Assembly (NCBI GenBank): GCA_021737425.1
Contig: JAIPDZ010000005.1
Coordinates: forward strand, 1-44,878
DNA from: Deltaproteobacteria bacterium
GTDB lineage: Bacteria > Desulfobacterota > DSM-4660 > Desulfatiglandales > Desulfatiglandaceae
Direction of reading: 5' to 3'
Length of the DNA: 44,878 nucleotides
Notes under the pieces: generated by a model
The model's database searches: none
What the model was told of the DNA's origin: nothing
Seen by the model: the letters and a program-made list of their open reading frames with translations, nothing else
In this document: piece after piece, positions 17,293-35,804 of the stretch
Layout: each line of letters begins with the position of its first letter
How positions within the stretch are numbered: position 1 is the first letter of the stretch
Position numbers and translations under genes: made by a program

Positions 17293-17316
17293 TCTATCAC
17301 TTGACCCTTGACGAAT

Positions 17317-18729
17317 ATGCACCGCATACTGATCATAGACGACGATAGCCTGGTGTGTGAGACCGTAACCGGCTGTGTCCATGCCATGGGTCACGAGGCC
17401 ATATCCGCCCGGAATTTGGGACGGGGTCTGGAACTGGTGTCTGCAGACTGTTTTGACCTCGTGTTCCTTGATGTGAGGCTGCCGGACGGCAACGGGCTTT
17501 CAGCCATCTCAAAGATTCGAAAGGCCCCCAGCGCTCCCCAGGTGGTGGTCATTACCGGGGAGGGAAGCCGGGACGGGGCAGAACTGGCCATTCACAGCGG
17601 TGCCTGGGATTACGTCGAGAAACCGCTTTCGATGGAAAAGATCAAGCTTCCGCTGATCCGCGTCCTTCAGTACCGGCAGGAAGAGGCCAAAAAAAAGAAG
17701 CCTTTACTCCTGAACCGGGAAGACATCACCGGAAGCAGCCCTGAGATGAAGCAGTGCCTTGAAATGCTGGCCAGGGCCGCGGATGTGGATGCCAATGTGC
17801 TGCTTACAGGAGAGACCGGGACCGGAAAGGAACTCTTTGCCCGGGCCATCCATGAAAACAGCAAACGGAAAGACCATCCTTTTGTGGTGGTGGACTGTGC
17901 ATCTTTGCCTGACAATCTGATAGAGAGCGAATTGTTCGGCCACGTGAAAGGGGCCTTTACCGGGGCGGACCGGATCCGTGAGGGCTTGATCAAGGAGGCG
18001 GACTGCGGCACGCTTTTTCTGGACGAGGTGGGGGAACTCCCCCTGGCTCAGCAGTCGGCCTTTCTCCGGGTGTTGCAGGAACACCGGTTCCGGCCCATAG
18101 GGGCCGGAAGGGATGTCCAAAGCGATTTTCGGTTAATTGCTGCAACCAATCGGCCCATCAACGAGATGGTGAAGGACAAAACGTTCAGAGAAGACCTCCT
18201 CTATCGACTCCAGTCCCTGTGCATCCCGCTTCCGCCGCTCAGGGACCGCTCAGGAGACATTCAAGAGATTCTGCTGCACTACCTGGGAAGGCTGTCAGGC
18301 AAGTATGGACCCGGACAGAAGGGATACTCTCCGGAATTCCTGGAATCCATCACCCGCTACCCCTGGCCTGGAAATGTCCGGGAACTGATCAATGCCATCG
18401 AACATGCCCTCTCAGAGTCCGGGCAGGCGCCCACCCTCTTTCGCATCCACCTGCCCACCCATATCCGATCCCACCTGGCCATGGATTCTCTTGGTGAAAC
18501 GGAGAGCGCATCCAATAACACTCTATTGCATGGCGCTTCTCCCGGTTCGGTGCCCAAAGTCAAGGACCTGCTTGAAGCGACAGAAAAAAAATATTTTCAA
18601 GACCTTATCAGAAATACGGGCGGTGATATGGAAGCCATCTGCCGCATCTCGGGTCTCAGCCGGTCCAAGGTGTATGCCCGGTTCAAGAAATACGGCCTGT
18701 CCAAGTCAAATCCCCGTCCATCCACCTGA
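17317..18729 (+). CDS. NtrC-family sigma-54 activator 1
   Basis: A 470-aa response regulator that should activate sigma-54 promoters. The receiver (1-120) has IDDDS and acceptor D52 in LDVRLPDGNG. The AAA+ domain has Walker A GETGTGKE, the sigma-54 contact loop GAFTGA in GHVKGAFTGADR, Walker B LFLDEVGELP and the arginine-finger region ATNRPI. A Fis-type helix-turn-helix closes the protein (AICRISGLSRSKVYARFKKYGL). ATG at 17317 is used; a TTG three codons earlier is also possible, and neither has a clear ribosome site because repeat DNA lies immediately upstream. It sits directly after the kaiBC-linked kinase and is the most likely output regulator for it. Confidence 0.93.
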   Translation: MHRILIIDDDSLVCETVTGCVHAMGHEAISARNLGRGLELVSADCFDLVFLDVRLPDGNGLSAISKIRKAPSAPQVVVITGEGSRDGAELAIHSGAWDYVEKPLSMEKIKLPLIRVLQYRQEEAKKKKPLLLNREDITGSSPEMKQCLEMLARAADVDANVLLTGETGTGKELFARAIHENSKRKDHPFVVVDCASLPDNLIESELFGHVKGAFTGADRIREGLIKEADCGTLFLDEVGELPLAQQSAFLRVLQEHRFRPIGAGRDVQSDFRLIAATNRPINEMVKDKTFREDLLYRLQSLCIPLPPLRDRSGDIQEILLHYLGRLSGKYGPGQKGYSPEFLESITRYPWPGNVRELINAIEHALSESGQAPTLFRIHLPTHIRSHLAMDSLGETESASNNTLLHGASPGSVPKVKDLLEATEKKYFQDLIRNTGGDMEAICRISGLSRSKVYARFKKYGLSKSNPRPST

Positions 18730-30452: not shown

Positions 30453-30511
30453 TTAAGCTACACTAAATGCCGGTATAAATTTATTAATGCTAAAAAAGGC
30501 GGTTGTTGAGA

Positions 30512-30925
30512 ATGATGGTCTTGTTCTTTTCCTCTGGAATGAGAACTGCGGAGAACCGAATGAGGCGAATCGTCCGGACCTTGGGCGCAGATATTCAGGT
30601 CTTCCGGTCTGTTACCCGATTAGCGGAGCGTTTTGAGCAGCCGCGCTGGGAATTGTCCGTGATGATTTTTAATATTGCCAACCAAGACATCCTAAATGAT
30701 CTGATCCAACTTAAAGACCGGATGTATGACCTTCCGGTCATTCTGATTCTTCCTGACAGCAAGAGAAACACAATTTTGAAAGGGCATAAACTCTATCCAC
30801 GGTTTATTACCGATATTGAATCTGACTTCAATGACTTGAATTTGGTTCTGGACAAAATACTCAGGTACAGCAGTGCTCTGGAATTCTCAATAAAAGAACG
30901 GGCACCGAAAAGAATCGCAAAATAA
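30512..30925 (+). CDS. Pseudo-receiver-like protein ahead of cheW
   Basis: A 137-aa protein with a CheY-like strand/helix rhythm (MMVLFFSS, LSVMIFNIAN, PVILILPD, RFITDIESD) but no acidic pocket and no acceptor Asp: the strand 3 end reads IFNIANQD. The conserved Lys position is also absent. I read it as a non-phosphorylatable receiver. The start could be TTG 30503 or ATG 30512; the latter avoids a rare start and leaves a purine-rich AAGGCGG upstream. It is the first gene after the sigma-54 promoter and 29 bases before cheW, so it is probably co-expressed with the chemoreceptor and may tune its signalling. Function is unknown. Confidence 0.75.
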   Translation: MMVLFFSSGMRTAENRMRRIVRTLGADIQVFRSVTRLAERFEQPRWELSVMIFNIANQDILNDLIQLKDRMYDLPVILILPDSKRNTILKGHKLYPRFITDIESDFNDLNLVLDKILRYSSALEFSIKERAPKRIAK

Positions 30926-30954: not shown

Positions 30955-31467
30955 ATGGCTGAATTGGCGGAAACAATAGATCAAGCCGGAAAGGCCATGT
31001 CGGACAGGGAAGGCAAGTACCTGACCTTTACCATGGCAGAGGAGGAGTATGGTATCGGCATCCTGAAAATCAAGGAGATCATCGGCATGATGCCCATCAC
31101 GTCCGTGCCCCAGGCCCCCGCCTTTGTCAAGGGGGTCATTAACCTCCGGGGCAAGGTGATACCGGTCATTGATCTAAGGCTACGGTTCGGGATGGAGAAG
31201 AAGGAATATAACGAGCGAACGTGCATTATCGTGGTAGAGATCCAGGGACATTCCGACACGGTGACCATCGGCATTGTGGTGGATTCGGTTTCAGAGGTGC
31301 TGAACATCAAGGCGGATGATATCGAGGACACGCCCACTTTTGGGACCCGGCTGGATACGGATTACATCCTGGGCATGGCCAAGCTGGCCAAAAGCGTCAA
31401 GATATTGCTCGACATTGACCGGGTTCTGAGTGCTGACGCGGTCGCCGAGCTGGCGCAGGCAGCTTAA
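30955..31467 (+). CDS. cheW: CheW chemotaxis coupling protein
   Basis: A 170-aa CheW with the typical core: YLTFTMAEEEYGIGILKIKEIIG, PITSVPQAPAFVKGVINLRGKVIPVIDLRLRFG, and IGIVVDSVSEVLNI. CheW couples chemoreceptors to the CheA kinase at the inner membrane. A very strong ribosome site (AGGAGGTG) precedes ATG 30955. The chemoreceptor gene starts 44 bases after its stop. No cheA, cheR or cheB is in the window, so this pair must plug into an array encoded elsewhere. Confidence 0.95.
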   Translation: MAELAETIDQAGKAMSDREGKYLTFTMAEEEYGIGILKIKEIIGMMPITSVPQAPAFVKGVINLRGKVIPVIDLRLRFGMEKKEYNERTCIIVVEIQGHSDTVTIGIVVDSVSEVLNIKADDIEDTPTFGTRLDTDYILGMAKLAKSVKILLDIDRVLSADAVAELAQAA

Positions 31468-31511: not shown

Positions 31512-34214
31512 ATGTCGTGGAAAAACATGACGTTTGGCAAAAAGATTGCCTTTGGGTTTTCATTATTAATTCTGATCACTGTGGTTTTGGGTGGTCTGGG
31601 TGCATGGTGGATGAAGGGCAGCCAGGCAGACTCGGAAATGCTGGCCGGGGAGTATGTCCCTGAAATGGCTATCGCCGCAGATATACGGGGGGCCGCCAAC
31701 CGGCTTATGTATCAGATGCGGGGGTATGGATTCACTGAAAACAAGCAGTATTATCAAAATGCTCAGGAGGAGCTCAAAGCGCTGAACGCAGGAATTCAAA
31801 AGGGAAATGATCTCGCGGAAAGGGCCGTTCACCTGGAGAAGCTGGGACCGCAACTCAGCAACATAGGAGCGGTTGAAAACAGATACCGAAAGGCCATGGA
31901 AGAGACCCTGAGTACTACCGAACACCTGGCGGAACAGCGCAACCAATTGGATGAAAATGCGGCCAAGTATATGCAGAACAGCAACGATTTTTTGGTTGCT
32001 CAAAACGCCGCGTTTGATAGGGATCTGGATGATCGTCAGAAAAAGATCGATATTGTCACCGATGTTGTGGCCCGGAGCACCCATGCCCGTGTGGAAAATT
32101 TTAAGGCCCAGGCCAGCAATGACATGGTTTTGATGCAGCAGGCGGCCGATCATATCCGTGAAGTGGAAACGGAGATCGAACAGCTTCGGTCCCTCACCGA
32201 CGATGCGGAGGATATTAAACGGATTGAAAACATAGAGGCGGCTGCGGAAAAATACGCCAAGAACATGGAAGCCTACATCGCCACCACCAGCATGATGGAC
32301 AAGGCTGCCGGGAATATGGACAAAAACGCCGCAGTGTACCTGAAGAATTGCAATGATTTTCTAATTAGCCAGAATCAGGCGATGCGCAGAGAGATCAACC
32401 AGCCCGGTGCAAATCTCGAAGAACGCTTGCACAAGATCACGCTCATCAACAACATCATTGATCTGGGGAATGGCGCCCGGGTCACGAACTTCAAGGCCCA
32501 GACCACCCAGGATGCAAAGCTCATGAAGGCGGCCATGGATAAGTTTAAAGGGGTAAAATCCATCACTGAAGAGCTTCGCGGCATAACGCACAGGACCGCC
32601 AATATCCAACAGATCAACACGATTGGATCCGCGGCTGACGCTTATTCAGCCGCCATGGCGGCCTATCTGAAGCATTATCTCGAACTCGATGAGCATCGAA
32701 ACGCGATGGACAAGTCAGCGGGTCTATATGTCACCAATTGTGAATCATTTTTGGAAGGCCAGCAGAAGAAACTGGGCATTGATATGCATGAGCGCCATAC
32801 AAAGATCACGGTCATGAATGACATTATCGATCTCGGCAACGACATGCGGGTCAAGGCCTTCAAATCCCAGGCCTTAAGAGACCCGGCCATCATGGAACAG
32901 GGCCAGGAGAACTTCAAAAAAATCGATGAAAGATTTGTGGAGATTCGTAAGATCACCCGGCTGGATGCGGACCTGGCGCGGCTGGACGAAATCCAGAAGG
33001 CCGGCGCCGGGTACCACGAGAGCATGGACAAGTTTCTTACGGGATGGCACAAGCTTCAGGAACTGGGCAAAACGCGGGATGCCCTGGGACAGGACATGAT
33101 CGACGGGACCAAGGTCTTGCAGGACGCGGCCGCCACTGCTACGGGTGAGGTGTCCAATACCGCAGCAGCCAACCTTTCTACGGCCTCCAGCACCATGATC
33201 ATCGGGCTGATCCTGGCCTTTGTGGTGGGCACGCTCTTGGCCTTTTTCATTGCCCGAGGGATTATTACCATCCTCAAGCGGATTTCCGCCCAGATGGATG
33301 AAGGCGCCGAACAGGTGGCCTCGGCCTCAGGTCAGGTCTCCTCTTCCAGCCAGTCCCTGGCTGAAGGGGCATCTGAGCAGGCCGCCTCCATTGAGGAGAC
33401 CTCGTCATCTCTGGAAGAGATGTCTTCCATGACCAAGCAGAATGCGGAAAATGCCGGTCAGGCCGATACCCTCATGAAAGAGGCCAATCAGGTGGTGGGC
33501 CAGGCCAATGACTCCATGACCGAATTGACCACTTCCATGGAAGAGATTTCCAAGGCCAGTGAGGAGACCTCCAAGATCATCAAGACCATCGATGAGATCG
33601 CCTTTCAGACCAATCTGCTGGCCCTGAATGCGGCTGTGGAAGCGGCACGGGCCGGTGAAGCGGGCGCCGGGTTTGCAGTGGTGGCCGATGAGGTGCGGAA
33701 TCTGGCCATGCGGGCCGCGGAAGCCGCCAAGAACACCGCGGATCTCATCGAAGGGACCGTCAAGAAGGTCAATGACGGCTCTGACCTGGTGACCAAGACC
33801 AATGAGGCCTTTGCCCAGGTGGCGGAAAGCGCCAAAAAGGTCGGCGGCCTGGTGGGTGAGATCGCTGCGGCGTCCAATGAACAGGCCCAGGGCATTGATC
33901 AGGTCAACACGGCTGTGGCCGATATGGACAAGGTAACCCAGCAGAATGCGGCCAACGCTGAGGAGTCGGCCAGCGCAGCAGAAGAGATGAATGCGCAGGC
34001 CGAGCAGATGAAGGCGTCGGTGGCTGAGTTGATGAAGCTGGTGGGCGGGGCCGGGAAAGACCATGTCTTAAAAACAGGAAAAACCGCTTCCACCCAGCCC
34101 AAAGGCCAGTCGAGCCATCATGCGCTTGCTGCGCCGAAGCAGAATGCCGGGGGTAGAGAAGCTACCCCGGAACAGACCATTCCCATGGATGATGACGACT
34201 TCAAGGATTTCTAA
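31512..34214 (+). CDS. Chemoreceptor with three helical sensor modules
   Basis: A 900-aa methyl-accepting chemotaxis protein. Transmembrane segments lie near 13-33 and 558-580. The unusually long periplasmic part (about 525 residues) is helical and contains three related modules starting near 145, 269 and 399. Each begins [LM]D[EK][NS]A and continues through a DFL..Q or SFL..Q stretch to an ARVENFKAQ-, ARVTNFKAQ- or MRVKAFKSQ-like end, resembling HBM-type double helical bundles with one module more. No clear HAMP domain follows the second segment. The signalling hairpin is standard ([38 protein letters not shown]) and Gln/Glu-rich methylation helices are present. There is no NWETF-like CheR tether; it ends in an acidic DDDDFKDF tail. 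A strong ribosome site (AGAGGAGG) precedes ATG 31512. The ligand is unknown. Confidence 0.94.
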
Positions 34215-34251
34215 ATCCATCATGAAGATCATTCTTTAAAACATTAACAAA

Positions 34252-34282
34252 AAGAAGGGGTAGCCTTTGTCTACCCCTTCTT
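34252..34282 (+). terminator. Strong hairpin terminator after the chemoreceptor
   Basis: A perfect 12-bp stem, AAGAAGGGGTAG with CTACCCCTTCTT, around a 7-base loop, 38 bases after the chemoreceptor stop. The trailing sequence is T-rich but not a clean run. Confidence 0.8.
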
Positions 34283-34325
34283 CGTATCACTTCTTCATTT
34301 TGATAATGACAGGCCATGGAGTTGG

Positions 34326-35804
34326 ATGATGAACCGAGTTTTGGGATTGTTGTTGGCCATTCTTTTGGGATGTTCGCTTCAGACATCTGTTGCTTTAGGT
34401 GGAGAAATTCAGGCTGAAACCTGCAACAGGCTGGATAAGATCCGGGAACAGAAAAAACTTCAGCTTTTCAATTACCTTGACAGGGTCAGAAAGCGTGCAG
34501 ATGCCATAAGAACAGACCATGTAATGGAGGATTTTTTCATTCTCAAAAATAAATACTATCATTTACAGCAACAAAAGACCCCTTCCAAGGGCCTCATACA
34601 AACCATTGAAACACTCAAACAGAAAATCAATGAATATTACCTCAGACGCTACCGTCTGTTTTACGATATCCTGTTCATTAATAGAGACGGCGACATATTC
34701 TATACCATCCGCAAGCAGACCGATTATCACAAGAATGTTTTTCAAGGAAAACTGGCAGACACAGCTCTTGCCCGGCAACTCAAAAAGCACCCCAAACAAA
34801 CCTTTGTGGATTATCAATATTATGATGTATCAGACGAACCCTCTTCCTTTATTGTGGAGCCCGTCATCAAGGCTGGTGAATTTGCAGGCTGGTTTGTCTT
34901 ACAGTGCGCCATCAATAAAATTAACAACATGTTTACTTATGAGGCAGGTTTGGGCAGAACCGGCGAGGTGTTTCTGGTAAACGAAGAGAATTATATGCTG
35001 ACCGATTCCCGGTTTTCCGGTGATTCCAGCATCCTGAAGAAAAGTCTTTCAGAGGAGAATATTGAGGCCAAATTCGAGGAGCGGGCAGGCCATAAGATTG
35101 TGACGGATTATCGAGGTTTCAGGGCCCTCAGCTCATTCGAAGTATGCCAGATCGCGGACAGTGAATGGCTGCTGATTGCCAAGATTGACGAAGATGAAAT
35201 TATCACCGAACAATATAAGAAACAGCGACAGCCTCTGCAAGCGGATTTAATCGAGCTTTTCAGAGAAAGGACGCTCCACAAATGCAGCGAAATTGAGGTG
35301 GATGAAAACCCGGTAGTGGTGGACATGGATGAGTTTCGGAAGGTAAAAAAAGGTGAGATGATCGGCACGTTCGGCGTTTCCACCTGTACGGCAGTGATTA
35401 TATCTTTTCCTGGAAAATTTGCATATCTCAGTCACATCAGCAACCTCGACAGGATATACGGGGGAAATACCACGGATTTGATCAGCCACATGCTCAAGCG
35501 CATCAAGACCTTTGATATATACAAATATGAGCGGCGGCAGCTTCAAGCAACCATTGTTGCCAATCATTTTGAGAGTGTCATGAACACGATTAACAGTCTT
35601 GTGGATGCGGGATTTTTCCTGTCTCAAATTAAGTTCATCTATAATGGAGAGGCTGAATATGGAAGGGTCATCCACGATTATATGACCAACGAGACCTGTG
35701 TCAGATGGCTCATGGACCGTGAATCAGGGAAGACGGTATGCCAGTGTGCTTCAGATATAGAGCCCATCGGCACCGTGATAAAACCCCTGATCGGTTATGA
35801 ATAG
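34326..35804 (+). CDS. Exported dCache protein with CheD-like domain
   Basis: A 492-aa protein with a lipoprotein-like signal (hydrophobic run ending LLGC, Cys16), so it should be outside the inner membrane. Residues about 35-295 match a double Cache sensor: RDGDIFYTIRK, then GLGRTGEVFLVNEENYMLTDSRF and DSEWLLIAKIDEDE. There is no second transmembrane segment. The C-terminal part from about 325 resembles CheD, the chemoreceptor glutamine deamidase: TFGVSTC aligns with CheD's TLGLGSC, putting T348 and C354 on the catalytic Thr and Cys, and H370 (YLSHIS) lies 16 residues after the Cys, about where the catalytic His sits. ATG 34326 or 34329 both follow GGAG. It lies just after the chemoreceptor's terminator. 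The dCache call is firm; the CheD-like call rests on motif matching. Confidence 0.8.
   Translation: MMNRVLGLLLAILLGCSLQTSVALGGEIQAETCNRLDKIREQKKLQLFNYLDRVRKRADAIRTDHVMEDFFILKNKYYHLQQQKTPSKGLIQTIETLKQKINEYYLRRYRLFYDILFINRDGDIFYTIRKQTDYHKNVFQGKLADTALARQLKKHPKQTFVDYQYYDVSDEPSSFIVEPVIKAGEFAGWFVLQCAINKINNMFTYEAGLGRTGEVFLVNEENYMLTDSRFSGDSSILKKSLSEENIEAKFEERAGHKIVTDYRGFRALSSFEVCQIADSEWLLIAKIDEDEIITEQYKKQRQPLQADLIELFRERTLHKCSEIEVDENPVVVDMDEFRKVKKGEMIGTFGVSTCTAVIISFPGKFAYLSHISNLDRIYGGNTTDLISHMLKRIKTFDIYKYERRQLQATIVANHFESVMNTINSLVDAGFFLSQIKFIYNGEAEYGRVIHDYMTNETCVRWLMDRESGKTVCQCASDIEPIGTVIKPLIGYE

Follow-up and report, generated by a model that had tools for sequence, protein, structure and literature searches.

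The window analysed here is a 44,878-nucleotide stretch from a Deltaproteobacteria bacterium of the Desulfatiglandaceae (assembly GCA_021737425.1, contig JAIPDZ010000005.1, positions 1-44,878, forward strand). At 34326-35804 on the plus strand it contains an open reading frame (ORF), supported by full-length homologues, for a protein of 492 amino acids (aa) in which an N-terminal signal segment is followed by a dCache sensor and then by a C-terminal domain with a predicted CheD-type fold. CheD is a cytoplasmic enzyme that edits chemotaxis receptors, and dCache is typically an extracytoplasmic module. The signal segment or membrane anchor (residues 1-25, 34326-34400, plus strand like all features of this gene) was assigned by hydropathy, motif scan and first-helix prediction, and includes a lipobox-like LLGC with its cysteine at C16. 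The dCache_1 domain occupies residues 49-262 (34470-35111), where Pfam PF02743 matches with E=5.3e-15 and 56.1 bits against a curated cut-off of 45, and Foldseek returns dCache ligand-binding domains. This is the sole Pfam match of the protein, and no Pfam or NCBIfam family scores above its cut-off in the C-terminal domain (residues 319-492, 35280-35801), which AlphaFold2 (AF2) models and the Foldseek match 2f9z_C assign to a CheD / CNF1-YfiH-like fold. Within it lie Thr348 (35367-35369), Cys354 (35385-35387), the predicted nucleophile, and His370 (35433-35435), which correspond to Thr21, Cys27 and His44 of CheD and are paired with these residues in the best hhalign alignment. The original prediction, made from the DNA letters and their reading frames, had given the frame, its coordinates and these three residue numbers exactly, and the dCache sensor that it proposed is the one recognised by Pfam.

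The homologue set comprises 16 sequences from Desulfobacterota, Planctomycetota and Omnitrophota, which are 35-73% identical to the window protein and come from desulfobacterial genomes, one Phycisphaerae metagenome-assembled genome, one Omnitrophota metagenome-assembled genome and further Planctomycetota. Every homologue has the same layout of N-terminal hydrophobic segment, dCache and C-terminal domain, and no free-standing copy of the C-terminal domain was seen among those found. The original prediction had staked itself on the conservation of T348, C354 and H370, and all three are invariant (16/16) across the three phyla. Residues D333, E336, E344, G350, T355, F365, Y367, D375 and Y378 surround the triad in the 16-sequence alignment. 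Two further matches, in L028 (Saprospiraceae) and G154, were short and low-scoring, did not match the architecture and were set aside as chance. A tblastn search of plasmids gave no match, and neither the protein nor the domain profile found relatives in sequence searches of the PDB. For the NTAN1 family, no match exceeded its cut-off in 198 genomes of the phylum. The XopAK effector family (NCBIfam) matched weakly in 3 of the 9 homologous domains (best E=0.0084, far below its cut-off) and was not used as evidence.

With nine homologues as input, AlphaFold2 modelled most of residues 330-490 at a pLDDT of ~90, and the C-terminal domain alone reached 84.8. The full-length model, compared with the PDB by Foldseek, retrieved dCache domains together with Thermotoga CheD (2f9z_C; E=6.8e-7, probability 1.00, 19% identity), the latter superposing with a root-mean-square deviation of 2.5 A over 153 columns and a TM of 0.70 of the target. 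For the isolated domain the same CheD chain came top (E=5.3e-8), followed by NTAN1 (~5e-4), CNF1 (7e-4), CNFy and YfiH (4e-3), and unrelated folds appeared from ~0.1 on. The top matches are thus all CNF1/YfiH-like cysteine hydrolases, with the alpha-beta-beta sandwich fold of that superfamily. A structural study of NTAN1 groups CheD, NTAN1, CNF1 and YfiH under this name, with a triad of Cys, His and Ser or Thr (PMC7022378), and C354, H370 and T348 provide these residues at the sequence level. Their spacing is +6/+16, compared with +6/+17 in both CheD (T21/C27/H44) and NTAN1 (S69/C75/H92) (PMC7022378). The CheD-type fold of the domain is accordingly confirmed by prediction; the comparison proposed in the original prediction could have returned a fold unlike CheD and returned a CheD-like one, and the reading of TFGVSTC...SH as the Thr-Cys-His layout of CheD is upheld by residue order, near-equal spacing and the independent structure search.

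Hydropathy of the 492-aa protein and eight homologues shows a single hydrophobic segment, which is N-terminal; past residue 60 the membrane threshold is not exceeded, in agreement with the earlier claim that a second membrane segment is absent. The membrane should therefore not separate the dCache and C-terminal domains, which would share one side of it. The protein is probably exported, with its C-terminal domain predicted to act outside the inner membrane. In all homologues the predicted signal segments, with the sensor on the same side, depart from the cytoplasmic location of CheD. The lipoprotein-type signal first proposed stands only in part: LLGC is present here and seven further planctomycete homologues have GC motifs (LFGC, NTGC or NPGC), whereas the eight homologues scanned (other desulfobacterial, Phycisphaerae and Omnitrophota) have no lipobox. 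Thus, lipidation is supported for some members only, while export is well supported.

The gene order in the window is CheW (30955-31467, plus strand; Pfam PF01584, E=8.5e-40), a chemoreceptor (31512-34214, plus strand) and the gene of the dCache protein, hereafter the enzyme gene. By Pfam, the 900-aa receptor has an HBM/4HB-like periplasmic region at ~residues 33-557, as unusually large as had been proposed, and it is a candidate substrate or partner whose relatives adjoin the enzyme gene elsewhere. In seven desulfobacterial loci the enzyme gene has as its neighbour, before or after it, a chemoreceptor of HBM/4HB type whose periplasmic region is enlarged, and such relatives stand beside it in BH30 (L023), DeMMO2_31 (L026/L027), G433, G247 and G095. 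The genome of the window has a second copy of the module (G000:C250, L069:9819-15808), with an enzyme 73% identical to that of the window, a CheW-containing ORF and its own large receptor, 65% identical to the window receptor over the periplasmic region. In the Omnitrophota genome the receptor relative and the enzyme gene share a contig, ~6 kb apart, and a kinase and a sigma-54-type regulator are encoded between them; the Phycisphaerae genome carries the two on different contigs. Chemoreceptors are encoded in all enzyme-bearing genomes screened (12/12). In a 395-genome sample of the phylum, a strong match to the receptor periplasmic region was present in 4/4 enzyme-bearing genomes and 1/391 others, counts that are not independent because the enzyme-bearing genomes are mutually related. 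Partnered receptors are also longer (774-916 aa in total versus a median of 679, p=5e-5), a difference that is suggestive only, being not independent of phylogeny.

Other features of these loci are recorded here as side observations. Most partnered receptors have at the C-terminus an acidic tail that is conserved ([11 protein letters not shown]-like; 34182-34214, plus strand, in the window) and resembles a tethering tail. A 140-aa ORF with a TTG start (30503-30925, plus strand) matches no Pfam family; a copy with 50% identity to it adjoins the C250 module, which also has a 910-aa dCache receptor downstream, and a faint relative may be present in the Omnitrophota locus. A sigma-54-type response regulator of the window (17308-18729, plus strand) is 50% identical to the regulator beside the Omnitrophota enzyme, and a similar one lies upstream of CheW in the C250 copy; the window regulator may belong to the same system.

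Computation gives the export topology, domain order, fold, invariant triad and neighbourhood of the dCache and CheD-fold protein; its catalysis, ligand gating and substrate we infer. The best explanation, to which we would give an even chance, is a membrane-tethered or exported, ligand-gated sensor-enzyme, a Cys-His-Thr amidohydrolase that in desulfobacteria acts on the adjoining receptor. Binding of a small ligand by the dCache domain, on the outer side of the inner membrane, would control the C-terminal amidohydrolase, a putative member of the CNF1/YfiH-like superfamily with a fold closest to CheD. The desulfobacterial substrate would most likely be side-chain amides, perhaps glutamines, on the periplasmic helices of the adjoining chemoreceptor, which could then be tuned from outside in parallel to the tuning of signalling helices by CheD from inside. 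CheD deamidates Gln in receptor alpha-helices (PMC7022378), a type of substrate similar to the periplasmic region of the receptor, which its 4HB/HBM-like Pfam matches suggest is all-helical. The more specific proposal, a new exported family of ligand-gated deamidases that covalently adjusts chemoreceptors in the periplasm and forms a second, outward-facing adaptation mechanism beside the cytoplasmic CheD/CheR/CheB, is tentative and in our view less likely than not.

Several observations weigh against an enzyme of CheD type that edits the neighbouring receptor. The CheD Pfam model PF03975 matched none of nine family members, and hhalign against 23 CheD sequences gave E=0.11 with nine family sequences, which is non-significant alone; 16 family sequences gave a marginal E=0.023, with 3/300 shuffles equally good. 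By themselves, sequence profiles do not prove homology to CheD, and the lack of a PF03975 match together with the marginal profile similarity marks the domain as a superfamily branch of its own, distinct from canonical CheD. Between the receptor and enzyme genes lies a strong hairpin (34251-34283, z = -5.3), possibly a terminator and mainly for the minus strand, so that the two genes may not share a transcript here. In other Planctomycetota the flanking genes differ and the enzyme gene is not beside a receptor gene, and a 100%-complete genome (G020) has a receptor relative without the enzyme (L119:5977-8691, 904 aa, 43% identical in the periplasmic region). Among the receptor relatives, no convincing glutamines were conserved only in enzyme-partnered receptors, and Q164 of the receptor is kept by most relatives, partnered or not.

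The Planctomycetota copies beside unrelated genes and the lack of enzyme-linked conservation of receptor glutamines would both suit an exported amidohydrolase that acts on something else, for instance small molecules, amides of the cell wall or other proteins of the envelope; its receptor link would then be coincidental or regulatory. The same fold acts on UDP-MurNAc-peptide in YfiH/PgeF (PDB titles) and on N-terminal Asn in NTAN1 (PMC7022378). However, seven desulfobacterial loci retain a related receptor directly before or after the enzyme gene, and receptor and enzyme tend to be present together; we regard this alternative as rather improbable. It is unlikely that the CheD fold was kept as a binding module that docks on the periplasmic helices of the receptor and reports the ligand state of dCache without chemistry. 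The receptor neighbourhood and the enlarged periplasmic region agree with such a role, and signalling from periplasmic binding proteins to receptors is established, but T348, C354 and H370 are strictly invariant across three phyla, which is expected of an active site and not of a docking surface. Although the CheD proteins known so far reside and work in the cytoplasm, an ordinary CheD in the cytoplasm or inner leaflet, acting on the signalling helices of the receptor, is very improbable given the N-terminal signal segments of all homologues examined (many with positively charged N-termini), the lipoprotein-like GC motifs of several, the dCache domain and the two canonical CheD genes already in the genome. 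One of these is a CheD-HDOD fusion of 447 aa (L071:3899-5242), and CheD-containing frames of similar length are widespread in related genomes.

In the literature searched, no paper describing an exported dCache and CheD-fold architecture was found. What appears to be new is the location of a putative CheD-fold enzyme beyond the membrane, with a sensor of its own attached; such a function is plausible. To our knowledge, CheD is known only from inside cells, covalent tuning of chemoreceptors only on cytoplasmic helices, and the known bacterial members of the CNF1/YfiH-like superfamily work either in the cytoplasm or, as toxins, inside host cells. If the enzyme does edit the receptor, the sensing part of a receptor would be editable too, and the edit could depend on a second ligand. 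Even with another substrate, the protein would represent an exported branch of the superfamily.

Among known systems, the protein is most like CheD (PF03975, PDB 2F9Z) in its fold by structure search, the order and near-identical spacing of Thr, Cys and His, and the chemoreceptor link. It differs in being predicted to be exported, where CheD is cytoplasmic, in its fusion to dCache and in going undetected by the CheD Pfam model, and the GGA...IGxRN segment of CheD has no obvious counterpart in the window domain. With NTAN1 (PDB 6A0E) it shares the superfamily fold and a Cys-His pair plus a hydroxyl residue, whereas NTAN1 is eukaryotic and intracellular, has Ser for Thr and carries an additional C-terminal region. 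The superfamily fold is likewise shared with CNF1 / BLF1-type deamidase domains and YfiH/PgeF, but CNF1 and BLF1 are toxins acting on host-cell proteins and YfiH is a zinc-bound cytoplasmic enzyme; we know of no CNF1, BLF1 or YfiH-type protein with a sensor domain. The sensor itself, found by both Pfam and Foldseek, is like the dCache_1 ligand-binding domains of chemoreceptors and kinases. Unlike those proteins, the window protein has no second membrane helix or cytoplasmic output, and the membrane is not predicted to separate its sensor from its output domain.
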